NCBI GenBank assembly: GCA_024628785.1
Contig: CP102404.1
Coordinates: 744,001-808,000, forward strand
Origin: Fusobacteria bacterium ZRK30
GTDB taxonomy: Bacteria; Fusobacteriota; Fusobacteriia; Fusobacteriales; Fusobacteriaceae
Direction: 5' to 3'
Length of the DNA stretch: 64,000 nt
Positions 26,725 to 59,517 of the stretch are shown here, in pieces. Every line of letters starts with the position of its first letter. The first letter of the stretch is position 1. The notes beneath the pieces were generated by a model. The model worked only from the letters and a program-made list of their open reading frames with translations, searched no databases and had not been told where the DNA came from. The translations under genes and the position numbers were made by a program.

Positions 26725-26864
26725 GGAAATAATGATGACAGGATTCTCCGAATAGATTAATTGATTTTAATTTTATTATACAATTCAAATCAATTTTCAT
26801 ATTGTATTTGAGAAGACCTACACCTTGTTGTACAAAGTAATACCTATATATGGAGGAAGAAATT

Positions 26865-29800: not shown

Positions 29801-30326
29801 GGTAAATAAAAGAGGTCAAAATGTTTTAGATTCTTGTATCTTCAGAGCTAATGAAGATGAAGGAATCCTCCTTTACAAACACTTTAGGGGTCTCGGACTT
29901 CAGGTCGTAAATCAGAAAGATGGTTTTAATCTACTTCAGGATGCTTCTTCTCGTATGAGGACTTCTTTCTTAGATATATTGAGTAAAGATATGGATATAA
30001 ACAGCTCTGATGATTATGGTTATACTCCACTATTATGGGCTCTGTCATCAGATATAGAGTGTACCATCCATGAGAGATTAGTTTGTGTAAATAAGATAAT
30101 TTCTCTAGGTGGAAATGTTGAATCCACAGATAATCAGGGGAAAACTCCTTTAATCTGGGCAGCTTATCTTAAGTCTACTGAGATAGTTGACAGCTTAATT
30201 AGGTCAGGAGCATCTATTGAATTGTCTATCTCAGCAGCATTAGAATTTAATATGGATGAAGACGTTTTAGAAGTTTTGACTGAGTTAAAAAAATATACAA
30301 ATTCAAATAATAAGTTATTTTCTTAA
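26865..30326 (+). CDS. Giant ankyrin-repeat protein
   Basis: An in-frame ATG at 26850 overlaps the ribosome site itself (GGAGG 26852-26856), so ATG 26865 is the start; 1153 residues. Ankyrin units are clearest at residues ~370-450 (LLLDAGADPNYQDPTGN) and ~800-1130 (TPLMSAVYYGAKECVKVLLK, GNTPLKMAVSYG, KTPLIWAAYLKS). The N-terminal 350 residues and the centre are degenerate solenoid. No signal peptide or membrane segment, so it is a cytoplasmic binding scaffold. Ankyrin proteins often serve as immunity proteins beside SUKH genes; this role is inferred from the neighbours. Confidence 0.85.
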   Translation: MNFFKDFIKTEKEERKNYPIEKIILTTNIGNLKDLKERINAKNIIGKILEVVGDCYTPLGYAIKVENLTSVEYFLEIDPLFYHRGNFNLEKECKNLKNINIIKLLVEKGVDFNVFHYPIKKHELPGYLNLKYSNDDMRDATIGFYSQILLNNEMNYKFEFLQELDAVGIRSSHKDFFTPAEACMIGNNYISVIKKILENSSEPPEELFHLFLDTDNSDQSKVINLIKYFVDERGVVLEESNPMSERLSLILRIFNSYSKNSEIMFEAIQRMKSFDGFEKQICSVLNEKQIAALKGFNVPNEIRFFTLKNYNDILNCLKNLKKLDRTVLDHLVFNDFRLKEKITLIDTFIQMGGDINVMYEPAPSDSSNVNLLYALAYGEIEKREKLIQHLLEKGAKVQCNGYSALLPAIHNYNLFLIKLLLDAGADPNYQDPTGNLIIEGLFSWNTHVFTPHERQEVINLLLTAGLEIDKIYSFKNGEYSVLERLFLIKNTEESLTYLLNNNIGDFSKGGIPLLSLLSKTFTLENKIKIIDLNPNYRFYDQEHDTNLSLLDINMVYNVPEGESLINYILEKYPKVKLSYIEKKCYLPTKSLNFSTYEKLMTDNSHLIKKRYQFNNPDDIRRFNMSTMFVKSMNYIDMYKKGGKKIDEIVSILDLYVSLGDDINIRSVGDNSSSILQPISFIMTETNQIELKIFDCLYRNGFDVERLEGRHNETPLLELHRWNIIDYNPIAEDVYVSILDFFWEKAPFDLSIRSGVEDNLLLAYSKACSAKVVEWILQKGDNINAIGGFDNSPALHKAISNHDIISPMVRAQTVEVLIKYGADIEQFCNADHFTPLMSAVYYGAKECVKVLLKAGANINALCGQGLTIPQLAVVSNKSYDAPTPANFQSIQSNILKILVEHGAELNYPSLKNSSLTTKESPPLHWAVLKNKKEIFETLIQLGADINLQNIHGNTPLKMAVSYGETYFIERLLKLNSDIEVVNKRGQNVLDSCIFRANEDEGILLYKHFRGLGLQVVNQKDGFNLLQDASSRMRTSFLDILSKDMDINSSDDYGYTPLLWALSSDIECTIHERLVCVNKIISLGGNVESTDNQGKTPLIWAAYLKSTEIVDSLIRSGASIELSISAALEFNMDEDVLEVLTELKKYTNSNNKLFS

Positions 30327-41039: not shown

Positions 41040-41122
41040 TATTTCCTAATAGAATATTAATTTATTTTAATTTTTCTAATAGATATAACTTTAACATTAA
41101 AACAACTATGAGGAGGAAAAAA

Positions 41123-42169
41123 ATGAAAAAAATATCAATCTTATTAGCAGCTTTAGTTATTACTGGAGTTTCTTATGGAGCACAACTAGAATTAAAAGGT
41201 GGATTTGAGCCTTGGAGAGAAGGAAATAACTCATCTTCAAGTTTTGATCAAGGCGGGAGTTTAGGAGCAGAGCTATTATTTAATGCAGAAAATAGTCCAT
41301 TTGATTATGGTATAGGAATGGAGTGGAAATCTGAATTTTCTGGAGGAGAAAATAATGTGTTAGGTGAAACAAAAAGTAATGCATTTCCTGTATATTTAAC
41401 TGGTAAATATGGAATAGGAGAAGATTTATTTTATTTAGTAGGTAGAGCTGGATGGGCTATGTATGATACTTCTGAATCTATTGATGGGTTTTATGGAGCT
41501 GTAGGAGTTGGAAAACAATTCGGTCACTTTACTGTTGAAGCACTTTATGAATCTATGGATTTAAGCGGAAGTTCTCATATGTATTCAGGTGATAGAGTTA
41601 ACTTGGCATCAATCAAATTCGGTTATAAATTTGGTGAAAATAAGAGAGATGTAATCTCAAGAGAAAAAGAAGAAGCGCTAAAAGCAGAGTATGAAAAACA
41701 ACAAGCTGAAGAAGCTGCTAAAATAGCTGAAGAAAATAAAGCAAAGGAAGAAGCTGCTGCTTTGGAGAATGAAAAGGCTTTAGAAAATATTGCTAATGAA
41801 AATGAAAGAGCAGAAATCTTAAAAAAATATAATAACGTGATTGTTGCTGATGGTTATTCTATAAATAAAAATGTACCTATGAATGTTAATCAGGAATTTT
41901 TAGAAAATATTGCTAATGATTTATCAAATGAATCTGGGACTCTTACGGTTAGTGCTTATACAGATAATACAGGGTCAGAAGCAGCTAATTTAAGAATTTC
42001 TAAAAAAAGAGCTGATAAAGCTGCCGAAGCAATAAGAGAAGGAATCAATAATGAAAATATTGAAGTTATATCAGAAGGATTAGGAGAAACTAACTTTTTA
42101 AATGATAACTCTACTCTTGATAAAAGAAAAACTAATAGAAGAATAGAAGTTAATTTTATAGCTAAATAA
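41123..42169 (+). CDS. OmpA-family outer-membrane protein
   Basis: The in-frame ATG at 41108 overlaps the ribosome site AGGAGG, so ATG 41123 is used; 348 residues. A signal peptide (ISILLAALVITGVSYGAQ) is followed by an eight-strand barrel (residues ~20-180), an Ala/Glu-rich coiled segment (~190-240) and an OmpA peptidoglycan-binding domain (LTVSAYTDNTGSEAANLRIS, RRIEVNF). It links the outer membrane to the wall. The same barrel-OmpA arrangement explains the severed tail at 16060. Confidence 0.92.
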   Translation: MKKISILLAALVITGVSYGAQLELKGGFEPWREGNNSSSSFDQGGSLGAELLFNAENSPFDYGIGMEWKSEFSGGENNVLGETKSNAFPVYLTGKYGIGEDLFYLVGRAGWAMYDTSESIDGFYGAVGVGKQFGHFTVEALYESMDLSGSSHMYSGDRVNLASIKFGYKFGENKRDVISREKEEALKAEYEKQQAEEAAKIAEENKAKEEAAALENEKALENIANENERAEILKKYNNVIVADGYSINKNVPMNVNQEFLENIANDLSNESGTLTVSAYTDNTGSEAANLRISKKRADKAAEAIREGINNENIEVISEGLGETNFLNDNSTLDKRKTNRRIEVNFIAK

Positions 42170-42182
42170 TACAGGAGGAATA

Positions 42183-42572
42183 ATGAAAAAATTAATATTG
42201 ATTGCTTTATCTATTTTAACATTAGTAAGTTGCAATTCTAATCTAGATAAAGAAAAAAAATCAAGTATAAATGTAACTGCAACTTACCGTGAAAGGATAG
42301 CATTATTACCTGGAGCTAAAGTTATAGCGACACTAGAGGATGTTTCTAAAGCCGATGCTCCTAGTGTTGAAATAGCAAAACAAGAGTTACCGGCGGGGAA
42401 TCTTCCTTATAAATTAACGTTAGATTTTTCTGAAAAAGATATTATTGAAAACCATAGATACAACGTAAGAGTTAAGGTTATGAAAGATGAAAAATTAATT
42501 TTTACATCAACAGATTCATACGATCCATTTAAAGAAGATGAAAAGGTAATTATATTGAAAAAAACAAAATAA
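42183..42572 (+). CDS. YbaY-family lipoprotein
   Basis: A 129-residue lipoprotein with lipobox LTLVSCNS (Cys near 18). The mature part carries the YbaY pattern: YRERIALLPGAKVIATLEDV, SKADAP and a C-terminal YNVRVKVMKDEKLIF strand. YbaY-type domains resemble pilotin/YscW folds that assist outer-membrane assembly. AGGAGG precedes ATG 42183, 13 bases after the OmpA gene, so the two form an operon. Confidence 0.85.
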   Translation: MKKLILIALSILTLVSCNSNLDKEKKSSINVTATYRERIALLPGAKVIATLEDVSKADAPSVEIAKQELPAGNLPYKLTLDFSEKDIIENHRYNVRVKVMKDEKLIFTSTDSYDPFKEDEKVIILKKTK

Positions 42573-43333: not shown

Positions 43334-43975
43334 ATGAAAGAAAAAGAAAAATTTCCATTTTATAACTTATTAACCCTTGAAGAAAAGAAAAGTTTAAAAA
43401 TAAAAACTTATGAAAAAAATGAAATTATAACTTTAATTGAAGAAGTAGATAAATTTTATTTTATATTAGAAGGAGAAGCTAGATTTTTTAAAAATTTAGA
43501 AAAAATTAGACTAGCTTCAGTTTCTATTCTTTCAGAAGGTTATATTATAGGGATAATGAAGTTTTTGAATGGAAAAGGGGCGGGAGATGTAGTAGTTACA
43601 ACAGATACTTTAAAAGCAATAAAATTAGATATTAGTATAGTTAAAAGGTTGCTAGAGGAAAGTGTAAGGTTTAGTAATTATGTTCTAAATATAGCTGCTA
43701 AACGGTGGATAGAAACTGTAGATGTAATGACTATAAGGAATTTTTCAGGAAACAAAGGAATTATAGCTTATTATTTAATAAAAAAGTCGAAAGAGGGATA
43801 TATATATATTGAAAATTATAATGAAGTAATAAATGGCTTAAACATCAGTGGGAATGGATTTTATTCTACTATAAATAAATTTATAAAGGATGGAATAATT
43901 GAAAAATCTGAAAATAGTATAAAAATATTAAATTATGAAAAGTTAAAGGGGTTTTATATAGATTACTTACATTGA
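43334..43975 (+). CDS. Crp-like regulator, paralogue 3
   Basis: A 213-residue protein aligned with the regulators at 38711 and 39831 (PFYNLLTLEEKKSLKIKTYE, NFSGNKGIIAYYLI). Its recognition helix differs: LNISGNGFYSTINKFI. The start ATG 43334 lacks a strong ribosome site, so its expression may be weak. It lies directly upstream of the c-di-GMP riboswitch and giant surface operon and is a candidate regulator of it. Confidence 0.83.
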   Translation: MKEKEKFPFYNLLTLEEKKSLKIKTYEKNEIITLIEEVDKFYFILEGEARFFKNLEKIRLASVSILSEGYIIGIMKFLNGKGAGDVVVTTDTLKAIKLDISIVKRLLEESVRFSNYVLNIAAKRWIETVDVMTIRNFSGNKGIIAYYLIKKSKEGYIYIENYNEVINGLNISGNGFYSTINKFIKDGIIEKSENSIKILNYEKLKGFYIDYLH

Positions 43976-44031
43976 TAGGTTTTTTATAAAAAATTAAATG
44001 GATCTCTTAATTAAGTAAATTTTAAAATATT

Positions 44032-44094
44032 AGCAAAGCAGGAGAAATCTTGTGGCGCAAAACTATAGGGCATTTAAAATGATAGTCAGTTGCA
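44032..44094 (+). ncRNA. Cyclic-di-GMP-I riboswitch (GEMM-I)
   Basis: The core follows the GEMM-I plan. GCAA (44033-44036) pairs with TTGC (44090-44093) as P1. GCAGGA-GAAA-TCTTGT is the P2 stem with the conserved GNRA tetraloop. GGCGCAAA is the linker, canonical GGACGCAAA. ACTAT/ATAGT is the perfect 5-bp P3 base, followed by the characteristic AGGG. ATAGTCAGTTGC corresponds to the receptor ATAGCCAGGTTGCC. A terminator overlaps its 3' end and the giant DUF11 gene follows. Based on motif reading; a covariance-model scan was not run. Confidence 0.85.
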
Positions 44095-44121
44095 GATCTT
44101 TTTTTAGATCTGTATTTTTTT
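44091..44121 (+). terminator. Terminator platform of the c-di-GMP riboswitch
   Basis: CAGATCT and AGATCTG form a 7-bp stem (9 with flanking TG/TA) followed by a T-run. Its 5' arm begins inside the P1 strand TTGC of the aptamer, so folding of one can affect the other. Ligand binding would then favour read-through, but the overlap is short and the direction is uncertain. Confidence 0.75.
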
Positions 44122-44187: not shown

Positions 44188-47100
44188 ATGAAAAGAAAGT
44201 TGCTTAAAATTATGTTGTTTTTAATAACAACGGTGTATGCTTTAGGGGCAATAACTATAAACAAAGAAGCAAGTATATCAGAATATATACCTGGAGAAGT
44301 TTTTACCTATACTATAAGGATAGAAAATAATGATTCTGTAGAAGTAAGAAATTTAACAGTAAATGATGATATGAGTAGTTTACCTCTTATAGAAAAATCT
44401 GCGTCTGTAGATGAAGGAATAAATAGTAGTGGAGGAGTCTACAGCTTTAATAGTAAAAAGTTTAAGGCATCAAATGTTAGTGTTGGACCAAATAGTTATG
44501 TAGAATATAGTTTGGAGGTTGAATTAGACATTGACGCTAATGGAGATATTACTAACATCTCTAAAGTCATAGGTACAGGGATTTCTGAAAGTTCTAATGT
44601 AGTTGTAAAAGAATTGGATCAAGGTACTGCCATTGGTTTAACTAAAACTTCTCCAACAACTGAATATGACAATGGGGAGAAAATAGAATATGAAGTTAAG
44701 GTAAGTAATAATAGCGAGAAAATTATTGAAAATATTCAAATCTTTGATGATCTATCTACTTTAGGATTTAGTAATGTTGATGTCACTGTATCTACTACAG
44801 GAGTAGGAACAGATCCTAAGCTTTTAGATGGAAATTTATCAAGTATGAAATTAGATATTCCAGATGCAGTAATAGGACCAAATGGGACTATAAGTTACAT
44901 TATTAGTGGAAGAGTTGATGATACTCAATCTTCTGATATTATAAATGAGGCTAGAATAACAATAGATGGAACTGATAAAACAGCATCAGTATCTCATACA
45001 AGGGTTATTTATAACTATAATCTTATAAAAAGTGTTGATAAAACAAAGTATAGCCCAAGGGAGCCTTTAGAATATACTTTAAGGCTGGAAAATAATGAAG
45101 CAAATAGAGTAAGGGGTTTAGACATATCTGACCTTTTATCAACTATTGCAGCTTCTAGTACAACAGGTAGCAATGAATTGGCTTTTAATATGCCTAACAC
45201 TATAGTTCGTGCAAATGTAAGTTCAGGATCTAATTCTGGATTATCTAGCAATCCACTTACTGGAGATCTAGTAGCTACTGCTGCTGAGCTAGCTCCTAAT
45301 GGATGGATAGAATACACTATTTCAACTAAAGTTAATGATAATATTTTAGGAGAGATAAAAAATACAGCTACCATTATTGAAACTACTAGAGATGACAATG
45401 TTAAAATCAGTAATGAAGTTATTGTTGAATCTGAAGATGCAAATATATCAGTGAGTAAAGTTGTAGACAAAAGTGAAGATTATCTTCCAGAAGATATTTT
45501 GACTTACACTATAAAGGTAGAAAATAATGGTAATGGATATGGAGAAGAATTTGAAGTTAGAGACCTTATAAGTGATATTGAAAGTTTGCTAGCTAATGAA
45601 AATACAAATTATTTTAATTCTACTGATATATCTGATGGAAACCCATTTGAAGTAGGATCTATAGAGCTTACACATCTTGGGGCTAATAGTGTTTCTAAAA
45701 ACTATGTTCTTGGAAGTGAGCAAATAATTAAGGACCTAGTTGATAGTGTCTATATTGGACCTGGTGAATACTTAGAATATGAAATAAGGGTTCCTACTAA
45801 TCCTAGTGCTATAGGAGAGATTGTTAATGAAGTAGAGATAAGTTCACCTGACGGAGACGGTAATTTCCCGAAAACTGCGGCTGCTAGTACTACTCCTATG
45901 GAGTTAGGAGGAGAAAGTGATGTAGAGATTATAAAACAAATAGTCCCTGCTACTCAAAAAGAGTATAGCCCTGGTGATGAACTAACTTATGATATCCTTG
46001 TAACTAATAAGAATACAGATCATTTTATCAATGATTTCAATTTAAAAGAGATTATAAGTAATATAGAAACGGACCTTTTGGATATTGATATAAATAGTCC
46101 AACTTATGGCCAAAATATTAAAGGGGCGGCTTTTGAGTCTTGGACTTTTACCACTATTGATCCTACTAACTCAGTCAATGGAACTAAGCCAGGAGTAGAT
46201 GTAATAACTAACAGAGATGTTGATATTAATTTAGATATAGCACCTGGTGAATCGATAAAATATCGATTAAAGGCTAAGGTAAAGAAGAATGCTGTTGGAA
46301 AAATAATTGATAAAGGTTCTAATGGTGACAATGTCATAGAAGTAGGTGAAGGTGTGGTAATATCTTCTATTAAATTAGGAATTGTAAAAACTGTAAATAA
46401 GACTAATTATGCTCCTAATGAAGAGATGACATATGATATTATTATAAAAAATACAGGAAAAGGGTATGCTCAAAATATAGAAGTTTTAGATTTGTTATCA
46501 GAAATTGTTTCTGATACAGGGGTAAAAGCTTATACTAGTTGGGAAGTAACTTCAAAGTTAGAAAAAGTTGGTCCTGGAGCAGTAGCTAGTGGACATTCGG
46601 GAATTATAAGTGAGCCATTGCTGTCTCCTGATAATATAGACCCAAATGGACCTAACATGAAAGTAGCTCAAATAGGCCCGAACACAATGATAACATACAC
46701 TATTAAAGCTGTTATAAATTGTGAAGCTACTGGAAAGATAAAAAATAGGGCAACAGTAGGTGGATTATTAGTAGCTGATAAAGGGATTGTGCCTAACCCA
46801 CCGAACTTAAAAGCAACGAAAACAGTAGATATTGGTAGTTATGCTTCTACTGATGGATCTGATGTCTTAAAATATACAATTATATTAAATAATATAGATG
46901 GTGGATATATAGATGAGATAAATATAGAAGATGATCTAACTAATATGGAAGTTCAGTTATTAAATGGTAGTAAGGTTAGAGGTATTTTTTCATCATATAC
47001 TTTGGAAACTGTAAATGTTGGAGGTTGTGAAAGTACAGGAACCTCAACTCGAGGACCGATATCATTTGATGGTGTATTAAATGAAACAACTACTTTAAGT

Positions 47101-50100
47101 GGAAACCAAGCACTTAAGTATATTATTAGGGCTACCTTGAAAAAAGATTATCCAATAGATCTTATACCCTATGGGTCAATAAAAAACACAGGAACTGTAG
47201 CTCCTAAAAATGGTTCAACTATAAATATTGATGCTATAACTGCACCTAAGCAACCTAATTTAGCCATAGTAAAATCCACAACAAATCTTAATTTTGTACC
47301 TGGTCAAATAGTTAATTATGATATTCGTGTAGATAATAATGGGAATGGATATGCTAATGACGCTCGTGTTACTGATGTTTTTAATAATACCCAATTTGAA
47401 TATTGGACTATAACAACTAAAACAGATGGAGATAAAGGAACAAGTGGATATAGAGGTAGTAATGCTGATGTTAATAATCGTATTCCAAGTGGTCAAAACA
47501 TCCAAAATATGGATGTATTAGCAGATATAAAACCTGGTGGATTTGTAGAATATCATATTGAAGCATTAGTGAAATCGACGGTTTTACCTAGCGAAATGAT
47601 CTCAAATCTTGCTAATGTACACGACACTCAAAGTGGGAACGACTATTCTTCTTCTGTTGAGTTAGATGGTACAAACGATGGTCTATATATTACTAAAGTT
47701 GCTGATAAATTTAATTATATCCCAGGAGAACCTCTTGGTTATACTATAACAATTTTTAATACTACAAATGATCCAATAGATTTTAAAGCTTCAGGTTATA
47801 CAGTTAGCGATAAATTTAGTGGTATTAAAATAAATTTAGCTAATGATGGGAGAAATCCCTATGTAGATATTTCTGCTGGAGATCCTTTTGACGAGATTAA
47901 TTGGATAGGAGAAGATGGGAGAACAGGTAGTGGAGATATCGACGATCAACCAACGATTCCTGCAAATGGGAGCTATCAATACAATATTGCAACTGAAGTT
48001 AGCAATCGTGTTTTACATGGAAAAATAGAAAATGAAGTTTTTTTAATCAATAGCAATAACAATAAATTTGCAAGAGCTTCTGTAGAACTTAATGGAGGCG
48101 GAAATTATGGGGGATTGACTAGAACAGTTGATAAACAAGAATATATTCCTGGTCAGAACTTAACTTATACGATAGTAGTTAGAGGCGGCGAAAACGGATA
48201 TGCAAATAATATAAATCTCTTAGAAGAAATCAGTAAAATTCAAGTTAAACTAATGGATGGAACTAGTGGACCTGTATTTGGAGATATAAATGGAGCAACC
48301 TCTGAATATACTTGGACATTAGATGTTGATGCTAAAAATTCAGGAACAAGTAATCCTTCTAAACCTGCTGATAATACAGATATAATTAATGAGATTCTAG
48401 ATGTAGCTCCAGAAGATACGATTACCTATACTGTTACAGGGAGAATAAGACCTGATGCAAATGGAGACATAAGCTATAAAGGTCTTGTAACCAAGCAACA
48501 CAGATATAATTTAGATATAAAAAAAACAACTGATAAATCAGTATATATACCTGGTGAAAATATGACATTTATAATTGATATAAAAAATAATAGTAATGGA
48601 AATGCAGGTCAGATACCTATAAGAGATATTATCTCTGATATTAAAGTTCCCCTTTCTGATGGAACTACTGGAGATGCTTTTGACCCAATGGCTTGGACAA
48701 TTACAACAGAAAAATCAGGGGAATTTATTGATTATGTAGATTTTGGTACTGTTCAGGATAATACAGATATCATAACTAAATTCAATCTACCTGTAAATAC
48801 CGAAATAAAATATAAGATTACAGCTAGAGTTAACCCAAAAGCTATTGGGGGCATTCTTAATACAGCATTTATTGATGGAGATCAAGTAGGAATTGGAGTA
48901 GGAACTGCCAGACCAGGATTGGAGATGAGTAAAGAAGTTAGCAAGTATTACGATAGAAATGGAGAGACTGAAATAACAGGAGGTTATAAACCTGGAGGAT
49001 ACATTGAGTATTTATTAACTCTAAAAAATCAAGGAGATGGGGTTATAAATGATATTCCTTTAGGTGACCTTATAAGTCAAATTAAAACTAATAGGATAGA
49101 TGGGGCTAACCTTCAAGCTTTTTCTAGTTGGGATATTACAGAGACTCATACTGGAGGAGATGTTACTGTTCCGGGTCAAGGGTTTAATTATCCTATAGAA
49201 GATAAAGACATACTTGAAACACCTGGAGATGGAGTTCATATGATAATAGACATAGCTTCTAAAAGTGAAATAATCTTTAAGATAAAAGCCAAGGTAGATG
49301 AAAGAGCAATTGGGGATATAGAAAATATTGCAACAAGTGAAACTTTATTAGAAAAAAGTGGTGTATCTGAGATGAAGGAAGAAGATATAACTATTATTAA
49401 GGAAGCAGTTGAAATAGATGGAACAACTCCTAAGATAACTTATAAACCTGGAGATGAATTTAAATATATTATAAGAGTAGAAAATAATGGAAGTGGAACC
49501 TCTGTTGGTGCAACTCCAAGTTTTAAAGATCTATTAGGAGATGTAGTAGTGGAAACACCTGGGAAACCACATCTAAGGGAAGAAGCATTTGTTAGTTGGG
49601 ATGTTACTGCTACAAAGGGAAATAATCAGAGTATTAGCATAGGAAATGGTAGCAGCTATAATGATAATGTTACATCTTTAGGGGATTTTGTACCTATAAG
49701 TAATCTAGATATTGAAAATAATAATATCTTTTTAGCCTCTGGAGGTTGGATTGAATATGTAGTTACTGCAATAATTAGAGATGATGCGATGACGTCTATT
49801 ACTAACATAGGGACTTATCTCTCAAAAGAAAAAACTATTAGTGATACTGCTGTATTAAGCCCCTTAGCTCCTAAAATGGAAGTAGAGAAAAAAATTGTTT
49901 CTGTAGATGGAATACCTTGGAGAGTTGACCTGCCTTATAAACCAGGAGGAGAAATTATCTACGAAATCAAAGTTACTAATATAGGGGAATCTTTTGGAAA
50001 TGACATTTTACTAGAAGATAACTTAAGTTCTATAAGGACTAATATAACAGGGAATAGTACAGATACAGCATTTGAATCTTGGGAAATAACAGATGATGGT

Positions 50101-53100
50101 GGAACTAATGCACTTACATTTATTCACCCTTATAATAATGCAACTGATCTTAATGCTAAAATAGATATAGCACCTAGTGATACTATAAAATTTTATATTA
50201 AAGCTCAAATAAGAGAAAAGTTGATTGGGGCTATACCAGAGAATATTGCTACTGTTAAAGATGGAAATATTGCTTTAGATGAAGATGTAACAGAGGTAAT
50301 CTATCCTAATGATCCTAATCTTATTTTTCATAAGGAGATAAGTAGCGATGGAATTAGTTATGGGACAGGAGATGTAGATTATATCCCTTCTAATAATCTT
50401 TATTATAAGATTATATTAGAAAATACTGGTCTAGGATATGGTGTAAAAATAGGTGTGGAAGATATATTAAAAAATGTTCTAGATAGTAAGGGAAATTCTG
50501 CTTTTAATAGTGCATATACAAAAGTTGTAATCACTGATAAAGATGGAAATATAACTCCAGGCTCTACAGATGGGAAAACTTATGTTTCTAATTTTGGAAA
50601 TAATATTAATGGATTTAATGCAGAGGTAGATATAGAACCTGGAGCAAAGGTAGAATTTATTGTAGATGCAAAGGTTAAAAATACGGCTTTAGGAAATATA
50701 AAAAATAAAGCTACTATAGATGGTATAAAAACAAATGAAGTAATAGCACATTTAGCTAAATCTACTATTGAATCAACTAAAATAGGAAGTAATTATTATG
50801 GACCAGGAAATCCAATATCATATACTTTAACAGTTGAAAATAGTGGTTCTTCTACAGCTCAAGATATTATTTTAAATGAGATTATAAGTGGGATAAAAGT
50901 TAAGACTGTAGGAGGGGAAGAAAAACCAGCATTTAAATCTGGATGGAGTATCACAACTTTTTTATCTGATAGTGATAGTAACAGTGATATATCATTAATA
51001 CCGTCAACTGGAGATATAAAGGATATACCAATTACTTTAGGAACAGGAGATAGAGTAACTATTACTATAGATGCAATTGTTATAGATGATGCTGTAGGTG
51101 ATATAAATAATGAATTTCTAACTAATTATGATGGAACTGAGATCTCTAAAGAATGGGATATATTACATTCAAATGGTGATGTTCTTATAGTTAAAACACC
51201 AGTTGTAGATAGAAATAGTGTAACAAGGGATAGTAATTATACACCTGGAATGGAAAAAACTTTCTTAATAGAAGTAAAAAATATTGGGGATGGATATGCT
51301 TTAGGAGTAGATATTTCAGATAAACTTATGGAAATAAAGACTTTAGGAGGAGGTAATTTTATTGGGGCCTCAGTTCATGAGGTAGATGCTTTTAGAGAAA
51401 CTAGCACTGATATTCCTATAGAAGTAAGATACAACTCTAAAAATAATTCTTTAGAAACAAAACCTGTTGGAATTCCAAATGAAATACTTGGATTTGAAGG
51501 AATAGTAAATATTGCACCTAAGGATACTTTTCAAATATGGATTACTGTTAAACTAAATGAAGAAGCTATGAAAGAAATAGATACAGATGTAGTTGTTAAA
51601 TTTGATCCTAGTATTAATAGGGGGACAAAGGCTGCTACAGAATTAGTTGCATCAACTAAAATTTATTCTGTAAAAGATAATATAAAGATGAGAAAAGAGA
51701 TAAGTATTGATGGAAATAGTTATGGAACTAATAATGTTGTTTATTATCCAGAAGAAACTATATACTATCGAATTATTGCTGATAACACTACAGGATTAGG
51801 ATGGGCTGATGATATACAGATATTAGATAAGATAAGGGAAATTGAAACGGATATTTCAGGTGGAGGAAGAGGTCCTGCATTTGACCTTTCTAGTATTAAA
51901 ATAACTGAACTAAATACAGGAACATCAAGTTATAGTCAAATAGATGTTTCAGATAAAAATTTAAACGGAATTTTTGATTTAAGGCCTGGAGAAAGCATAA
52001 TATTTGAAGTAGAAGCTACCATTAGTGATAATGCTATAGGAAGAATAGACAATATAGCAAAGTTTAAAAATCAAAATACAGGATATGATACTAATGTGGT
52101 AACTGCAATTCCTAAAGGTGTTAATTTAAAAAATATATTTATAACAAAAGAAGAAAGTACAGATGGTAGTACTTATAGTAACACTAAGATGGAGTATCTA
52201 CCTGGAGGGGAAAGTTATTACAAAATAACCGTAGAGAATAAAAATCCCTCCTTTGTTCATGAGTTAGAAATTAAGGATATTATAGGGGATATTATGGTAG
52301 ATAGTTCAGATATAAGTGGGACTGTTAAAGCATTTAACTCTATTTCAGTAGTACCTATAATAAATGCTCCAAGTAAAGTAGTAGGAACGCCTGATTATTC
52401 AAAAGGAATAGATCTAACTTTAGATTTAGCTCCTAATGACAAAGTTGAATTTATTATTAGTTCTACTATTGCTGACACTGCTATAGGAGAGATTAAGAAT
52501 ATTGCAGTTATTGATTATAGTACTGGTACTCAAATAAAAAACTCTAATGAAGTAATTTTTGAGCCGACACCTGCTGAGATCACTATAGAAAAGACTACAA
52601 CTACACCTTTAGCTATACCTGGAAAAAATATAGAATATGAAGTCCTTATAAAAAATAAAGGTGGTTTAGCTAATGACCTTAAGTTTATAGATGATCTTTC
52701 ATCTATTGAAGGATTATTATCAGATACTAACCTTAGAGGACATGTATTTGAGAGTATTAGTGCTAGTGTAATTAGTGCAACAGGTGCTACACCTAGGATA
52801 CCAGCATTGGATATAACTAGAAATAGAGTTACAAGTACATTTGATTTAAAGTCAAATGGAGAAGTAAAAATTAAGATTATAGGTAAATTAAAAGATACGG
52901 TAGTTCATGGAATAAATGTAGATCCTAGTGATAGAAGTATTATTAATACTGCAACTTTTGAATTTACTAAATATAATGAACTAACTCCTACAATAGGAGA
53001 ATCTACTATATCAGTACCTGTAGCTACCGCAGATATGAAGATAGATAAAATTGCTATAGTTGATCCTAATTTAGGTGGATATACCCCAGGGGAAGATGTT

Positions 53101-53262
53101 GAGTTCAGGATTAAAATATTTAATAATGGTGATGGAATAGGGGATAAATTTCATATCTTAGATGAATTAAATAAGATCACAGTAGATGCTGTAGATGGAA
53201 ATAAAGAGTTAGCATTTAACAAGTGGACTATTAGTGTGGTAAATGGGGGAGCTCCCCAATAA
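44188..53262 (+). CDS. Giant DUF11-repeat surface protein, main part
   Basis: AGGAGG precedes ATG 44188. The 3024-residue product begins with a signal peptide (LLKIMLFLITTVYALGA) and consists of about 21 consecutive ~135-residue DUF11-like beta-sandwich repeats. Each starts with a (Y)xPGExLxYxIxVxNxGxGxAxxxxxxDxL pattern and ends IGxIxNxAxI. The repeats form a long extracellular or periplasmic stalk. The frame stops at TAA 53260-53262 just after GGGGAGCTCCCC, and the same repeat continues in the next frame, so the intact gene would span 44188-55544, about 3780 residues. It is probably an adhesin or envelope filament; the function has not been shown. Confidence 0.88.
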   Translation: MKRKLLKIMLFLITTVYALGAITINKEASISEYIPGEVFTYTIRIENNDSVEVRNLTVNDDMSSLPLIEKSASVDEGINSSGGVYSFNSKKFKASNVSVGPNSYVEYSLEVELDIDANGDITNISKVIGTGISESSNVVVKELDQGTAIGLTKTSPTTEYDNGEKIEYEVKVSNNSEKIIENIQIFDDLSTLGFSNVDVTVSTTGVGTDPKLLDGNLSSMKLDIPDAVIGPNGTISYIISGRVDDTQSSDIINEARITIDGTDKTASVSHTRVIYNYNLIKSVDKTKYSPREPLEYTLRLENNEANRVRGLDISDLLSTIAASSTTGSNELAFNMPNTIVRANVSSGSNSGLSSNPLTGDLVATAAELAPNGWIEYTISTKVNDNILGEIKNTATIIETTRDDNVKISNEVIVESEDANISVSKVVDKSEDYLPEDILTYTIKVENNGNGYGEEFEVRDLISDIESLLANENTNYFNSTDISDGNPFEVGSIELTHLGANSVSKNYVLGSEQIIKDLVDSVYIGPGEYLEYEIRVPTNPSAIGEIVNEVEISSPDGDGNFPKTAAASTTPMELGGESDVEIIKQIVPATQKEYSPGDELTYDILVTNKNTDHFINDFNLKEIISNIETDLLDIDINSPTYGQNIKGAAFESWTFTTIDPTNSVNGTKPGVDVITNRDVDINLDIAPGESIKYRLKAKVKKNAVGKIIDKGSNGDNVIEVGEGVVISSIKLGIVKTVNKTNYAPNEEMTYDIIIKNTGKGYAQNIEVLDLLSEIVSDTGVKAYTSWEVTSKLEKVGPGAVASGHSGIISEPLLSPDNIDPNGPNMKVAQIGPNTMITYTIKAVINCEATGKIKNRATVGGLLVADKGIVPNPPNLKATKTVDIGSYASTDGSDVLKYTIILNNIDGGYIDEINIEDDLTNMEVQLLNGSKVRGIFSSYTLETVNVGGCESTGTSTRGPISFDGVLNETTTLSGNQALKYIIRATLKKDYPIDLIPYGSIKNTGTVAPKNGSTINIDAITAPKQPNLAIVKSTTNLNFVPGQIVNYDIRVDNNGNGYANDARVTDVFNNTQFEYWTITTKTDGDKGTSGYRGSNADVNNRIPSGQNIQNMDVLADIKPGGFVEYHIEALVKSTVLPSEMISNLANVHDTQSGNDYSSSVELDGTNDGLYITKVADKFNYIPGEPLGYTITIFNTTNDPIDFKASGYTVSDKFSGIKINLANDGRNPYVDISAGDPFDEINWIGEDGRTGSGDIDDQPTIPANGSYQYNIATEVSNRVLHGKIENEVFLINSNNNKFARASVELNGGGNYGGLTRTVDKQEYIPGQNLTYTIVVRGGENGYANNINLLEEISKIQVKLMDGTSGPVFGDINGATSEYTWTLDVDAKNSGTSNPSKPADNTDIINEILDVAPEDTITYTVTGRIRPDANGDISYKGLVTKQHRYNLDIKKTTDKSVYIPGENMTFIIDIKNNSNGNAGQIPIRDIISDIKVPLSDGTTGDAFDPMAWTITTEKSGEFIDYVDFGTVQDNTDIITKFNLPVNTEIKYKITARVNPKAIGGILNTAFIDGDQVGIGVGTARPGLEMSKEVSKYYDRNGETEITGGYKPGGYIEYLLTLKNQGDGVINDIPLGDLISQIKTNRIDGANLQAFSSWDITETHTGGDVTVPGQGFNYPIEDKDILETPGDGVHMIIDIASKSEIIFKIKAKVDERAIGDIENIATSETLLEKSGVSEMKEEDITIIKEAVEIDGTTPKITYKPGDEFKYIIRVENNGSGTSVGATPSFKDLLGDVVVETPGKPHLREEAFVSWDVTATKGNNQSISIGNGSSYNDNVTSLGDFVPISNLDIENNNIFLASGGWIEYVVTAIIRDDAMTSITNIGTYLSKEKTISDTAVLSPLAPKMEVEKKIVSVDGIPWRVDLPYKPGGEIIYEIKVTNIGESFGNDILLEDNLSSIRTNITGNSTDTAFESWEITDDGGTNALTFIHPYNNATDLNAKIDIAPSDTIKFYIKAQIREKLIGAIPENIATVKDGNIALDEDVTEVIYPNDPNLIFHKEISSDGISYGTGDVDYIPSNNLYYKIILENTGLGYGVKIGVEDILKNVLDSKGNSAFNSAYTKVVITDKDGNITPGSTDGKTYVSNFGNNINGFNAEVDIEPGAKVEFIVDAKVKNTALGNIKNKATIDGIKTNEVIAHLAKSTIESTKIGSNYYGPGNPISYTLTVENSGSSTAQDIILNEIISGIKVKTVGGEEKPAFKSGWSITTFLSDSDSNSDISLIPSTGDIKDIPITLGTGDRVTITIDAIVIDDAVGDINNEFLTNYDGTEISKEWDILHSNGDVLIVKTPVVDRNSVTRDSNYTPGMEKTFLIEVKNIGDGYALGVDISDKLMEIKTLGGGNFIGASVHEVDAFRETSTDIPIEVRYNSKNNSLETKPVGIPNEILGFEGIVNIAPKDTFQIWITVKLNEEAMKEIDTDVVVKFDPSINRGTKAATELVASTKIYSVKDNIKMRKEISIDGNSYGTNNVVYYPEETIYYRIIADNTTGLGWADDIQILDKIREIETDISGGGRGPAFDLSSIKITELNTGTSSYSQIDVSDKNLNGIFDLRPGESIIFEVEATISDNAIGRIDNIAKFKNQNTGYDTNVVTAIPKGVNLKNIFITKEESTDGSTYSNTKMEYLPGGESYYKITVENKNPSFVHELEIKDIIGDIMVDSSDISGTVKAFNSISVVPIINAPSKVVGTPDYSKGIDLTLDLAPNDKVEFIISSTIADTAIGEIKNIAVIDYSTGTQIKNSNEVIFEPTPAEITIEKTTTTPLAIPGKNIEYEVLIKNKGGLANDLKFIDDLSSIEGLLSDTNLRGHVFESISASVISATGATPRIPALDITRNRVTSTFDLKSNGEVKIKIIGKLKDTVVHGINVDPSDRSIINTATFEFTKYNELTPTIGESTISVPVATADMKIDKIAIVDPNLGGYTPGEDVEFRIKIFNNGDGIGDKFHILDELNKITVDAVDGNKELAFNKWTISVVNGGAPQ
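53246..53257. other. Frameshift point in the giant DUF11 gene
   Basis: GGGGAGCTCCCC is a perfect palindrome with G5 and C4 runs. The upstream frame reads GGA GCT CCC CAA TAA; a shift of one base makes it read CCA ATA ACT TAT and continue the repeat (PITYIPSFDPTQNL). A sequencing indel, a real mutation, or slippage-based switching are all possible. Confidence 0.75.
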
Positions 53263-55544
53263 CTTATATTCCAAGCTTTGATCCAACTCAAAATTTGGAT
53301 ATAGATATTGATCTTGCACCGAAAGATGAAGTGGAATTTAAGATTATTGCAACTGTTATCCCTGAAGCTTATGGAGAATTAAAAAACACTGTGACAGGAA
53401 CCTATGATCAAAGTAAACATAATGATGGCACTGATGCTTTAGAAATTACTGATACTGATAGTTTTCAACCATCTAGATCAGAAGTACATATTGAAAAAAC
53501 AGTAGATAAAGTTACTTTCGCACCTGGGGAAGAGATTACATACACTATTAAAGTATGGAATGTTGGACCAGGGCCAGCTCATAAAGTTAAGTTTGAGGAT
53601 ATACTTCCTCAGGCACTTACAACTAATGGAAATGGTGATGCATTTGATCCTGCTACAAGTAAGGTTATCAAAGTAGAATTATTTAATAATGCCAGCGAAA
53701 ACAAACCACTTAGTAATATTGGAAATGCTTTTACTTCGGAACTAGAGTTACCTAGAGATGGATATGCAATCTATACTATTGCAAGTAATGTTTCTTTAGA
53801 CGTAGTTGGTAAGATAGATAACATTGCGGAATTTAGTTATACCGATAATGATGGAACTGATAAAGAGGGGACGGCTAATGCTGAATCTAACCCAGCTAAT
53901 GCAAAACTTAATATCATTAAGACTGTTGATACAAGTGAATTTGTTGCAGGGAAAGATCTAACTTATGTAGTAACAATATCAAACACAGGTTTGGGAATTG
54001 CAAATGATGTTAAAGTTACAGATTTAATTTTGGATATTGAAAATGAATCTATAAGTGGAGACTCTATTAAAGCTTTTGACAGTGTAGTTATTACAGACAA
54101 TAGTAGTTCTTTAAACCCTATAAGTAATATAGAATCATATGACCCCAATAAAAATTTAGATACTCTAGTTGATATTGCTCCTAATGATAGCATTATATTT
54201 ACTTTAGTAGGTACTACTAATAAAATTATAGGGGCAGATATAACAAATAGAGCTGATTATATCTTTACTAACAATGATGGAAATAAAAATACTGGATTTG
54301 CAGAAGTAAGCTCCAAAATAAAACTTAATGAAGGTATGTTACAACTGAGTAAACGTGCGTTAAAAAAGGATGTTGAGAAAGGTCAAGTAGTAGAATATGA
54401 GATTATAGTTAATAACCCTACAGACGTTTATTTTACTAATGTAGCTGTAGAAGATAAAACACCTGCGGGATTTACTTATGTGGAGAATACAACTGAAATT
54501 ACTTTAAGTACAGATGGAAAATTTGGTAATAATGATGATCGAGATGTTTCAGATGAACCAATTATAGGAAATACATTAGGCTTTACAGCTGTAAATATAG
54601 CTCCTAAAGAAAATCTTCGTATAAGGTATCTACTGCGTGCTAGTATTGGAACTACTTTTGGTAAATATGTAAATACTGCACATGCTGTATCTGGTGGGAA
54701 GGTTGTATCAAACTATGATTCAGCAGATGTAGAAGTTATTCCAGATGCATTGTTTGATACGGCAACTATTATAGGAAAAGTATTTGAAGATATAAATGGA
54801 GATGGATATCAAGCAGATGCAACTGCTAAAAGGATTAAATTAATAAGTTCAATAGATCCTACAAACTATATTCTAAATAGTACAACTTTAACTATTGGCG
54901 ATAAAACAACAAAAATTAAAGATAAAAGTTCACCTTTAGTTAGAGGTATTACTATAGGAAAACTTCGTGGTGTTTCTAGGAATAGAAAAATAAAAGAGCC
55001 TAATAAAGCTATTATAAGATATGAAACAATAACTTCTACCTGGGAACCTCTAAAGGTTACCAGTAAAGATGGAACAACTATTCTTATAGATAGTAATGGG
55101 AAGGCAAAAGCTTCTCATAAAGGCGATTTAAAAGAAGGACTGGCTAGAGAAAACCTAAAAATCACAAGAAATATATATGCACAAAAAGGATCTCCAAATT
55201 ATCTCCAAGAAATTGTGGTGGAAAACTTTGGTATTTATGAGGATGGGATCCCTGGGATAAGGTTAATTACTTTAGGAGGAGTAGTTATAACTACTGATGA
55301 ATTTGGTCGTTACCATGTGCCGGATGAGTGGGTTACTAAAAAAACAGGTTCAAATTTTCTAGTAAAAGTTGATAGAGATAGTCTGCCTCAAGGGATGAGA
55401 GTTATTAGTGAAAATCCTAGAGTAAAGAGAATAACTCCTAATGGACTTAATAAATTTAATTTTAGTATCCAAAGGGAATTGGATGATTTTAATATCAAAG
55501 ATACAAATAAAATCAGAAAGGTAAGGAGTAAAGAAAATGGCTAA
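53263..55544 (+). CDS. Giant DUF11-repeat surface protein, C-terminal part (out of frame)
   Basis: The frame continues the interrupted repeat without its own ribosome site (the only early start is TTG 53295, 749 residues). It holds three more DUF11 repeats and then a carboxypeptidase-regulatory/SdrD-like domain: GKVFEDINGDGYQ and TTDEFGRYHVPDEW. It closes with VKVDRDSLPQGMRVISENPR and TPNGLNKFNFSIQ. That GRYHVP/ENPR/KFNF block is one I associate with large DUF11 proteins joined to OM barrels in other Gram-negatives. Its stop overlaps the barrel gene by 8 bases. Confidence 0.85.
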
Positions 55545-58500
55545 TACAAAAAAAATAATAATACTAATAGCTTCATTACTTTCTGTAGCAGCTTTAGGTG
55601 TAGAAACTCCTACGAACGAAGTAGAAAATTTAGAGTTAATAAGAAGTGAAGAGATGGAAATAGATAATAAAATGGGGATGCAAACAGATAACACTAGAGT
55701 TTATCTAAATGAAGGGGCTATATGGGCAACTAGAGATATAAATACAATTGAACCTGATATGAAAATAACAGTAAACAATGAAGCAGTAGTAGAAAGTGGA
55801 AATCTTAAACAAGAAATGAATTTTAGTGTGAAAACTAACTATGGATACTATGTAAAAAAGTGGGAATTAGCTATCTATCGTGGTGATGATATTAATCTTA
55901 TGGCACCAATAAAAACAATTACAGGTGATGAACTACATAATAATATGGATATAAAGTGGGATGGAATAGCTGAAGACTATGAGCTAAAGGGAGGGAGACA
56001 ACTCCTCTTTAGGTTAGTATCATGGGATGCAGAAGGAAATATGGATATTACCACTACAGGAGTAGTAGATCTAGTAAAAAAAGAAACAGATTTTACTATG
56101 GAAAATTTTGGAGAATTAGAAGATGACAAAAGAACATTTGGACAAGCAAAACTAATGCGTCATAATATTCCCGTGAATTCGGGAATGGTTAGATTTCATG
56201 GAACTAACCTAGTAGGAGTTGATAAAGTTATTATTGGACAAGAAGAATATACTATCGAAAAAGAAACACTTTTTGCGGAAGAATATCTTCCTACCGATAG
56301 ATACTTTATTCCTGTAGAAGTAGTCTATGATAATGAAGAAACTCAAGAGTATGAAATTTATGTTGAAATTCCGGAAAAATATTTTGTTCAGACTGGATTA
56401 GTAGATATGTATGTAGGTAAAAATTATGTCACTTCAAATAAAGAAGTTCTTAGTGTAGATTCTGAATATGATGGAGATATTTATAACCGTGGAAGGTTAG
56501 CATATTTTGGAATGGGAAAATTTAGTGATAAATTAAGAGTAACTGCACAGATGGATACCCGGGAAAATAATATAAAAGACTTGTTTAAAGATATATACAA
56601 AAGTGATAGCTATAATATTTTTGAAAGGGTAGATGATGACGATAGATATTACCCTACTTATGGTGATGAATCGACTATTCGTCGTGAAGTAAATACTCAA
56701 GGAAAACTATATCTTAGTGTAGATTATGATAAATCAAGATATTTATGGGGGAACTATAATACTGGTTTAACTGCTACAGAATTTAGTCAATATAACAGGA
56801 GTTTATATGGTGCTAAGGCTGACTATAGAACACGTAAGACTACTAGCTATGGAGAAGATAAATTAAATTTAGTTGGATTTGTCTCTGAACCAAATTTACT
56901 TTCTTCCCATGATGAATTTTTAGGAACAGGTGGAAGTCTATATTTTCTAAAACATGGAGATATAGCTGCTGGTAGTGACAAAGTAGCAATAAAATTAGTT
57001 AATAAAACTACTAAAGTCACTGAGGATATAATCTATATCCAAGAGGGTAAAGACTATGAAATAGATAATTATCAAGGACGTATTATCTTAACTAGACCAT
57101 TATCTGATATTTCTTCTGATTCTTTTGGATCTATCATACAAAACAATCCTAGAGATGGCTATGAAAATTATTTAGTTGTGGATTATGAATATATTCCAGA
57201 TGACTCTGATTCTATGGACAATTTAACGTTTGGAGGACGTGGAAAAGGATGGGTCAATGATTATATTGGAATAGGTGGGACCTATGTCAATGAAGAAAAA
57301 GATGCTCAAGATTACCAAATGATGGGAACTGATCTTACTTTAAGAGCCACTGAAGGGACATATTTAACAGCTGAATACAGTAAGTCAGAGGGAACTCAAG
57401 TTGATAGTAATTTTGTATCTTTTGATGGAGGACTAAATTTCAAAGAGATATCAAATTCTAATGTTAAAGATAAAGATGGAGAAGCATTTAGAGTAGCAGG
57501 AGTATTTAGTTTTTATGATCTAAGCCCAGAACTATTTAGTCCATATGGAAATGATATTAAAGTTTGGTATCAAAACAAAGATGCAGAGTATTCATATGCT
57601 TCTAAAGATGATAATCTTTCTTGGGAGAGCTATGGGACAGAAATTAGGTATCGTCCTAATAATAGCTTGCAATTTAAGTCGCGTTATCTTTCTACAATAG
57701 AAAGAGATATAAATGAAAAAAAAGTTACAGATACTGAAGAAGTTCAAGTTCAAGGAGAGTATGCTATTACCGATAAATTAAAAGTAGGAGCAGAGGCCAA
57801 ACATATTCAAGAATTGGAAAATGATAAATTGGGTAAAGGTAATCTTGTAGGTGGAATGGTTGAGTATGAATTTACAGAGGATACGAAGCTATATGTAAAA
57901 GCTCAAACAACTGTAAGCTCTAATGATGATTATAGTGATAATGATCTATATACTATTGGAGGAGAAACAGAGATCAACGATAAATTAAAGTTAACTGGAG
58001 AATATAGCACTGGTGATCGTGGGTATTCAGCAGATGCTACAGCTGATTATAGTTTATATGACGACTACGATATTTATTTAGGATATGTATTGGAAGAGAT
58101 GGAAGATTCTGATAAAAATAATGTGACCTTTGGGCAAAGAGCTAGCCTTACTAAGAAAGTGGATATTTATCAAGAAAATCAATTTGTGGATGAAAATAAC
58201 GGTAAGGGAAGAACAGATTCCTATGGAATAGATTATGAATATATTGAAGATTATAAAATAGGAGCAGCTTTGCAAACAGGGGAGTTAAAAAAAGATAATG
58301 AAGAAGATGTTCGTAGAAGAGCTATTAGCTTATATCAAAGTGCTGAAATCTCAAAATTAACTCTAAAGAATAAGATTGAATTTAGACAAGATAAGGGAGA
58401 TGAAAAGGTAAACCAATGGGTAACTACCAATAGCTTTAAATATAAGTGGACCAATGAATATACAATTGTAGGAAAATTAAATTATTCTAGGACAGATAAT

Positions 58501-59040
58501 AAAACTACGTCTAAAAAGGAAGCTGAATTTACAGAAGGCAATTTGGGACTAGCTTATAGGCCTATATACAACGATAAATTGAATTTTCTTACTAGATATA
58601 CCTATTTACAAGATCAAGAAAAGGAAAGTGACCGTGATATAGATTATTCCGATGAAAAGAGTCATATTTTTGAATTTGAAACAATTTATTCATATAATGC
58701 TAGATGGGATTTAGGATTGAAATTAGCAGGAAAGGATAAAAGTGAAATAATTGAGAGGGCCTCTGGAAATAATATTAAGATGAGGACGCAGATCTACCTG
58801 GTAGGGATGAAATCAACTTATCATATTATTAAAAATTGGGATATATTTTCTGAATATCATTGGAAATTTGATCAATATGAAAATGCTTTAGAGCAAGGTG
58901 CACTTATAAGCGTCAATAGACATTTGGGAAACAACCTTAAAGTTGGATTAGGTTATAATTTTTCTAGTTTTGAAGATGATCTTCGTTATGATGACTATGA
59001 TGCAAACGGTTGGTTTATTAATATTGTGGGTAAATTTTAA
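55537..59040 (+). CDS. Outer-membrane beta-barrel partner of the DUF11 giant
   Basis: The protein has 1167 residues, with a signal peptide (KIIILIASLLSVAALGVE). Residues ~60-290 are periplasmic beta domains, followed by GRLAYFGMGKFSDKLRVTAQ, DRYYPTYGDEST, YLWGNYNTG and FLGTGGSLYFLKHGDI blocks (~320-480). From ~540 it has dense alternating strands and a terminal Phe (WFINIVGKF), as for a large barrel. The middle motifs match those I know from the C-terminal half of giant proteobacterial DUF11 proteins. AAGGAG lies inside the giant gene and the ATG overlaps its stop, so the two are coupled. It probably exports or anchors the stalk. Confidence 0.88.
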   Translation: MANTKKIIILIASLLSVAALGVETPTNEVENLELIRSEEMEIDNKMGMQTDNTRVYLNEGAIWATRDINTIEPDMKITVNNEAVVESGNLKQEMNFSVKTNYGYYVKKWELAIYRGDDINLMAPIKTITGDELHNNMDIKWDGIAEDYELKGGRQLLFRLVSWDAEGNMDITTTGVVDLVKKETDFTMENFGELEDDKRTFGQAKLMRHNIPVNSGMVRFHGTNLVGVDKVIIGQEEYTIEKETLFAEEYLPTDRYFIPVEVVYDNEETQEYEIYVEIPEKYFVQTGLVDMYVGKNYVTSNKEVLSVDSEYDGDIYNRGRLAYFGMGKFSDKLRVTAQMDTRENNIKDLFKDIYKSDSYNIFERVDDDDRYYPTYGDESTIRREVNTQGKLYLSVDYDKSRYLWGNYNTGLTATEFSQYNRSLYGAKADYRTRKTTSYGEDKLNLVGFVSEPNLLSSHDEFLGTGGSLYFLKHGDIAAGSDKVAIKLVNKTTKVTEDIIYIQEGKDYEIDNYQGRIILTRPLSDISSDSFGSIIQNNPRDGYENYLVVDYEYIPDDSDSMDNLTFGGRGKGWVNDYIGIGGTYVNEEKDAQDYQMMGTDLTLRATEGTYLTAEYSKSEGTQVDSNFVSFDGGLNFKEISNSNVKDKDGEAFRVAGVFSFYDLSPELFSPYGNDIKVWYQNKDAEYSYASKDDNLSWESYGTEIRYRPNNSLQFKSRYLSTIERDINEKKVTDTEEVQVQGEYAITDKLKVGAEAKHIQELENDKLGKGNLVGGMVEYEFTEDTKLYVKAQTTVSSNDDYSDNDLYTIGGETEINDKLKLTGEYSTGDRGYSADATADYSLYDDYDIYLGYVLEEMEDSDKNNVTFGQRASLTKKVDIYQENQFVDENNGKGRTDSYGIDYEYIEDYKIGAALQTGELKKDNEEDVRRRAISLYQSAEISKLTLKNKIEFRQDKGDEKVNQWVTTNSFKYKWTNEYTIVGKLNYSRTDNKTTSKKEAEFTEGNLGLAYRPIYNDKLNFLTRYTYLQDQEKESDRDIDYSDEKSHIFEFETIYSYNARWDLGLKLAGKDKSEIIERASGNNIKMRTQIYLVGMKSTYHIIKNWDIFSEYHWKFDQYENALEQGALISVNRHLGNNLKVGLGYNFSSFEDDLRYDDYDANGWFINIVGKF

Positions 59041-59055
59041 AAAGGTGGTTAATAC

Positions 59056-59517
59056 ATGAAAAAACTTTTTTTATTAGTTATGGTTCTTACACTTATTTCT
59101 TGTGCTGAACCAAACTATAGAGAAGATAAAAAAATTGTAATCAGAAAAATTCCAAGGGTAATCTTAAAACTTACTCTTAATGCAGGGGCTAATTTTGATT
59201 TTGATAAGTCAGTCCTTCTAAATAAAGATATTCCTAAATTAAATGAATTTATAGACAAAATTAAAGAATTAGAAGGAACTTTAATTATAATTGGGCATAC
59301 TGATACAAATGGTAGTTATGAATATAATAATAAACTTTCTATGAGAAGAGCTAAGGCTGTAGAGAACTATATGGAGGAAAGGTTAGACTTTGATAAATAT
59401 CAATTAGAAGTCCGTGGAAAAGGGGAACAAGAGCCTATTTATAAACCTGAAAAATCAATTCCTGAAATGGCAGCTAATCGACGTGTAGAAATTACATTTA
59501 TAGAAACGAATAAATAA
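59056..59517 (+). CDS. OmpA-type peptidoglycan-binding lipoprotein
   Basis: A 153-residue lipoprotein with lipobox LTLISCAEP (Cys near 16) and an OmpA domain: FDFDKSVLLNKDIPKLNEFI, LIIIGHTDTNGSYEYNNKLS, MRRAKAVENYM and NRRVEITF, with the Asp and Arg that bind diaminopimelate. AAAGGTGG precedes ATG 59056, 15 bases after the barrel gene. It is the third member of the operon and probably ties the barrel to the wall. The 160 bases that follow hold no gene. Confidence 0.92.
   Translation: MKKLFLLVMVLTLISCAEPNYREDKKIVIRKIPRVILKLTLNAGANFDFDKSVLLNKDIPKLNEFIDKIKELEGTLIIIGHTDTNGSYEYNNKLSMRRAKAVENYMEERLDFDKYQLEVRGKGEQEPIYKPEKSIPEMAANRRVEITFIETNK

Follow-up and report, generated by a model that had tools for sequence, protein, structure and literature searches.

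The 64,000-nucleotide stretch of DNA analysed here (the window; Fusobacteria bacterium ZRK30, contig CP102404.1, positions 744,001 to 808,000) contains an operon encoding a giant secreted DUF11-repeat protein, a large predicted outer-membrane barrel and an OmpA-domain lipoprotein, which probably make up a three-part display machine: a c-di-GMP-controlled giant fibrillar adhesin with a giant barrel of its own, whose stalk end and wall anchor would lie in the periplasm. Few isopeptide-type surface domains are as widespread as DUF11 stalks and, to our knowledge, the route by which Gram-negative bacteria export and hold such giant stalks is largely open. The gene set points to an undescribed way of pushing out and holding giant adhesive fibres. 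The operon and its leader comprise the following features:

44022..44097, + strand: c-di-GMP-I riboswitch aptamer (Rfam RF01051, 42.9 bits; gathering cut-off 35)
44091..44114, + strand: intrinsic terminator, its 5' arm overlapping the 3' end of the aptamer (terminator scan: 1 found against 0.0 expected)
44188..55544, + strand: giant stalk gene as a whole, from its ORFs; broken into two frames in this assembly
44188..53262, + strand: first part of the stalk, an ORF of 3,024 aa with a signal peptide and about 21 DUF11/CLIPPER domains (PF01345, 2.7e-49)
53243..53262, + strand: frame-break site of the stalk, with a base missing in or beside a G5 run and then a premature stop
53256..55544, + strand: second part of the stalk, frame -1, about 760 aa, with the last three DUF11 domains and then the CnaB-like end domain (PF01345, 1.9e-26, 3 stretches)
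55537..59040, + strand: large barrel protein, 1,167 aa, with a signal peptide, N-terminal beta domains, a plug-like insert and a predicted barrel ending in a C-terminal Phe
59056..59517, + strand: OmpA-domain lipoprotein (peptidoglycan anchor), 153 aa, with the lipobox LISC (PF00691, 1.2e-18)

The ORF coordinates agreed with what an earlier note on this DNA had described, that is, three genes in this order, an 8-base overlap between the stalk and barrel genes, 15 bases between the barrel and lipoprotein genes, and a 1,167-residue partner ending in Phe; the riboswitch that it had placed ahead of them proved to be of the c-di-GMP-I class. Its stalk of about 3,780 residues was right in length for the unbroken gene only, and the single open frame did not hold in this assembly, where the stalk is split into 3,024 aa and about 760 aa. 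The intact orthologue in a close relative (G007) is 3,791 aa long in a single frame, and its alignment with the window stalk revealed one base absent in ATGGGGGAGCTCCCC near 53,246. A programmed -1 frameshift was considered, but the intact G007 orthologue does without one, and for this reason we prefer to attribute the break either to an error in the assembly or to a lesion of recent date. That the interrupted frame near 53,246 marks a true pseudogene, with the system dead in this strain, deserves serious consideration but seems unlikely, given that the change affects a single base at a homopolymer where the G007 relative is intact, and that the downstream frame, the barrel gene and the OmpA gene are all intact and conserved, the barrel being 98% identical to that of G007.

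The stalk qualifies as a long secreted tandem-DUF11 protein, with a signal peptide and Pfam PF01345 matches on both of its parts, in keeping with the DUF11 repeats proposed earlier. The repeats begin directly after the signal peptide, and Pfam named no adhesive head domain in the window stalk. Repeat anchors found by regular expression gave about 25 DUF11 domains for the whole stalk, spaced by some 127-168 residues. In most of these domains K, D and N are placed as in isopeptide-forming CLIPPER domains, the Lys-Asp-Asn isopeptide-like pattern being complete in 17 of 22 anchors as judged by regular expression only. DUF11/CLIPPER repeats are described as established stalk domains of fibrillar adhesins in the available text of PMC12617251. 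The C-terminus of the stalk is a CnaB-like domain bearing the GRYHVP...ENPR...KFNF motifs already pointed out in the earlier note, which are kept in relatives. A fused relative was modelled with a pLDDT of 89; there, the terminal DUF11 domain together with the end domain matched CnaA+CnaB pairs found in SdrD and in the pilins of Gram-positive bacteria, and comparison of this model with the solved CLIPPER domain 9IFR gave a Z of 12.3 and an rmsd of 2.9 over 119 aligned positions. At two other loci, L122 (G030:C15) and L124 (G083:C6), the barrel gene is followed by single DUF11-repeat frames of 10,057 and 7,675 aa, respectively, which are among the largest bacterial proteins.

The barrel nature proposed for the second gene product was supported by an AlphaFold2 model (pLDDT 78.4, pTM 0.73) and by Foldseek. 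The model comprises N-terminal beta domains (residues ~54-280), an inserted plug-like segment (~455-518) and a long run of antiparallel strands, ~36-42 strands in all according to DSSP. The top solved structures retrieved by Foldseek were outer-membrane barrels, SprA and LptD included, with SprA entries at ranks 1, 2 and 6 (E 2.3e-8). Global superposition on SprA gave a TM-score of 0.14 and an rmsd of 38 Å, and the VIA comparison a Z of ~12 with an rmsd of 16-23 Å. Strand number and closure are uncertain because of the pTM of 0.73 and the low global TM-scores to solved structures, and since superposition on solved barrels was poor, the predicted fold is safely assigned only at the level of class, as a large outer-membrane barrel. 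The protein belongs to no family in Pfam, NCBIfam or PHROGs; DUF2490 was rejected as its family (E 0.0033, under the family cut-off), and Pfam at E 0.1 gave no PF03797, POTRA or ShlB match. Searching the sequences of solved structures with a barrel profile returned only a weak match to OmpT, a V. cholerae porin (E 5.8e-4, 62 positions). A SprA_N search of the window's genome gave no match, a result that carries no weight, as its controls gave none either.

Relatives of the barrel numbered at least 545 in a two-pattern scan over 84,980 prokaryote species, and the best 80 of these came from Fusobacteriota, Pseudomonadota, Campylobacterota, Thermodesulfobacteriota, Myxococcota, Nitrospirae and Krumholzibacteriota; weak relatives were found on cyanobacterial plasmids. 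Public records name the barrel 'hypothetical' or 'TonB-dependent receptor'. Among the matches listed, the closest barrels beyond the window's genus were those of Vibrionaceae (50-53% identity), encoded in the identical three-gene order, and in a quick maximum-likelihood tree Vibrionaceae were sister to the window's clade (99% SH-aLRT), the paralogue from the window's own genome sitting far from that clade. The simplest reading would be a transfer of the system between marine Fusobacteriota and Vibrionaceae. We also noticed a second family, only remotely related, whose single-chain members combine DUF11-like, SdrD-B-like and barrel parts (L037:3922-8895, 1,657 aa; L038:9409-13572, 1,387 aa); a plasmid of Acinetobacter haemolyticus carries a further match.

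The barrel is almost obligately paired with DUF11 stalks. Among 98 Fusobacteriota genomes, 26 encoded the barrel, 26 encoded DUF11 and 25 encoded both, a near-obligate pairing in either direction (25/26) with a hypergeometric probability of 5e-21, a figure that ignores shared ancestry. The 12 DUF11 matches in the window's genome are confined to its two barrel-encoding operons. In an evenly drawn sample of 299 Pseudomonadota genomes, all 19 full-length barrel loci examined had a DUF11 stalk, directly upstream in 17 cases, fused in 1 and downstream in 1. Over 128 barrel loci, the stalk end domain was detected by HMM beside or fused to the barrel in 116, the automatic count placing the stalk upstream at 101 loci, fused at 13 and downstream at 2, with 4 loci at a contig edge and 8 unassigned. 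The 12 loci left by this count included 9 with an adjacent stalk or DUF11 giant, recognized by inspection or orthology (the downstream frames of 10,057 and 7,675 aa among them), and 2 at contig edges; L127, with a short barrel frame, was the sole locus of the 128 with no stalk in sight. Barrels regularly devoid of a DUF11 partner were thus not encountered, and the partnership suggested by the earlier note stood. The commonest junction of upstream stalk and barrel genes was a 4-base overlap (44 of 101 pairs); at some loci the barrel gene precedes the stalk gene, or the parts are on separate polypeptides.

Fused stalk-barrel forms, which the earlier note had mentioned for some proteobacteria, do exist in Pseudomonadota and also in members of Thermodesulfobacteriota and Krumholzibacteriota, as well as in Fusobacteriota, where the single chains measure 5,295, 5,264, 1,893 and 1,891 aa. 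The order on the chain is stalk N-terminal and barrel C-terminal, and in several lineages the barrel protein's mature N-terminus follows directly on the stalk end domain. Adjacent or fused, the parts of the system occur in at least 6 bacterial phyla besides Fusobacteriota. At one locus (L025:13770-13790) a -1 shift at a seven-A run splits the stalk from the barrel, the orthologue L129 being a single frame of 5,264 aa; this run may be either an assembly slip or a slippage site able to switch between fused and free stalk.

The wall-binding lipoprotein described earlier was recognizable by its lipobox and its Pfam match, and its sequence contains HTD..NxxLSxxRA..NRRVE, with the conserved D and R of the peptidoglycan-binding positions. 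Across the 128 loci, an OmpA module was found at or inside the stalk end domain in 52, on the N-terminal side of the barrel, within the barrel ORF or the fused ORF, in 10 and as a separate downstream gene in 29, and nowhere else within stalk or barrel; Pfam confirmed these module assignments. The separate downstream gene is characteristic of the window's clade and Vibrionaceae, and a module inside the stalk end of Lysobacteraceae, Campylobacterota and the paralogue in the window's genome; in other groups it is N-terminal to the barrel. A module fused to stalk or barrel always has the DUF11 array on one side and the barrel on the other. Our own OmpA model detected no such domain at 36 of the 128 loci, so that the anchor may be absent or distant there. 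Taken together, the pairing, the fusions and the module order are strong evidence, at the level of gene and domain arrangement, that stalk, barrel and wall anchor would operate as one functional unit.

Peptidoglycan is periplasmic. With the OmpA module placed between array and barrel, the stalk-barrel junction should then also lie in the periplasm, and an exposed DUF11 array would have to cross the outer membrane either beside or through the barrel. A stalk of 3,000-10,000 residues hardly fits in the periplasm, and we infer from the module order that the array most likely exits through the barrel. On this basis, high c-di-GMP would lead to expression of the three-gene operon; the stalk and the barrel protein would both cross the inner membrane by Sec; the barrel protein would enter the outer membrane and there form a very large barrel, on whose N-terminal beta domains the CnaB-like end domain of the stalk may dock from the periplasmic side; the DUF11 array would thread out via the barrel, giving a fibre of an estimated ~100 nm; and the OmpA lipoprotein would link the base of the fibre to peptidoglycan, making it load bearing. 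A broader proposal, which we put forward tentatively but consider credible, is that the unannotated barrel, possibly of ~40 strands and so larger than SprA, is a dedicated conduit exporting folded or partly folded DUF11 fibres, whose base is held in the periplasm by the CnaB-like stopper and the OmpA anchor, and that its one-, two- and three-protein versions represent a widespread undescribed secretion route. If true, a conserved barrel partner would supply the export route in Fusobacteriota, Vibrionaceae, Lysobacteraceae, Campylobacterota and others, and would be an object of study in its own right, as a single-chain barrel of very large size.

The earlier note had left export and anchoring side by side as roles of a modular machine; the pairing and the fusions support such a machine, and the choice of export over mere anchoring is one that we infer. 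Were the stalk exported by some other pathway and fastened only afterwards to OmpA and the barrel protein, as to a base plate, the barrel gene could just as well precede the stalk gene or the parts be on separate polypeptides, as found at some loci, and the N-terminal beta domains predicted for the barrel protein would suit binding. We consider this quite unlikely, since the fused chains carry the stalk N-terminal to the barrel, in an autotransporter layout with the OmpA module between, and no other dedicated exporter adjoins the loci examined.

A barrel acting as a receptor or porin, for which the stalk would capture polymers or particles, would account for the plug-like insert of the model and for the annotation of several plasmid copies as TonB-dependent receptors, as well as for a Roseovarius operon annotated DUF11 - TonB-dependent receptor - hypothetical. 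However, Pfam gave no TonB_dep_Rec or Plug match at E 0.1, NCBIfam was likewise empty for three relatives, and a near-obligate pairing with DUF11 that extends to fusion would be unusual for a nutrient receptor, which makes this explanation improbable. Still harder to accept is an array that stays in the periplasm or bridges both membranes without forming a surface fibre: with ~25 to over 60 Ig-like domains (3,000-10,000 aa), it would far exceed the width of the periplasm, and DUF11/CLIPPER domains are known from fibrillar-adhesin stalks, among them that of an Acinetobacter protein whose C-terminus is an OmpA-like anchor (PMC12617251).

In a literature search, most subscription journals and preprints being outside its scope, we found no description of the DUF11, barrel and OmpA set, only isolated DUF11-OmpA adhesins, and no named secretion system with such a set, as the earlier note had also stated. 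The nearest of these is the CLIPPER (DUF11) fibrillar adhesin B9T28_05395 of Acinetobacter silvestris (PMC12617251, PDB 9IFR), which shares with the present stalks the DUF11 repeats, apparently with isopeptide-type residues in both, and, with most of them, the C-terminal OmpA-like anchor. The available text of that paper names no barrel partner or export route and does not contain the word 'barrel', whereas a barrel is present here; one part of the system is thus known already, without its barrel partner. Type V secretion resembles the one-chain form in its N-terminal passenger and C-terminal barrel, and the two-gene form in the dedicated substrate-barrel pair of two-partner secretion. However, Pfam detected no autotransporter, POTRA, ShlB/TpsB or TPS domains here, the barrel is ~3x larger and of another family, and an OmpA wall anchor is frequent; lacking any defining type V domain, the system would at most work like an autotransporter or two-partner secretion.

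SprA/Sov of type IX secretion likewise forms a very large outer-membrane barrel, of 36 strands in SprA (PMC10994853), but its overall superposition on the barrel model is poor, no sequence match to the present barrel was found, and it exceeds 2,000 aa compared with 1,167 aa here. Moreover, the present family extends far outside Bacteroidota, and we found no sign of the motor or of the C-terminal T9SS signals. Chaperone-usher systems (FimD/PapC) also combine a large barrel and a plug-like insert with the handling of Ig-like domains, whereas here a single chain of tandem repeats is the putative substrate, usher families gave no match and no chaperone gene adjoins. As to sortase pilins and MSCRAMMs (SdrD, BcpA, PilA/PilB), their CnaA+CnaB pairs match the last two domains of the stalk, but instead of LPXTG and sortase the present system has an outer-membrane barrel and OmpA.

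Regarding its control, the aptamer found in the window also precedes the G007 orthologue and the stalk gene of a Propionigenium relative (L026), and the paralogous stalk-barrel operon of the window's genome is preceded by two tandem c-di-GMP-I riboswitches, each with its own terminator (L022:11406-11647). All five aptamers that precede stalk genes (window, G007, the L022 pair and Propionigenium) share this overlap of their 3' end with the 5' arm of a terminator, so that binding of the ligand should preclude termination and vice versa, and c-di-GMP should turn the genes on. Such an ON-type switch, deduced from the overlapping helices only, would suit an adhesin used in sessile life. Scans of Vibrio loci and of other loci from Fusobacteriaceae revealed no c-di-GMP riboswitch, and we therefore regard it as a local regulatory layer rather than a general part of the system. 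Just upstream of the riboswitch ends a Crp-type regulator gene (43334-43975) that is conserved in G007, and farther upstream an OmpA-family protein gene is followed by a YscW-type lipoprotein gene (41108-42572). Elsewhere in the window, 26850-30326 encodes a protein of 1,158 aa whose C-terminal half contains many ankyrin repeats.
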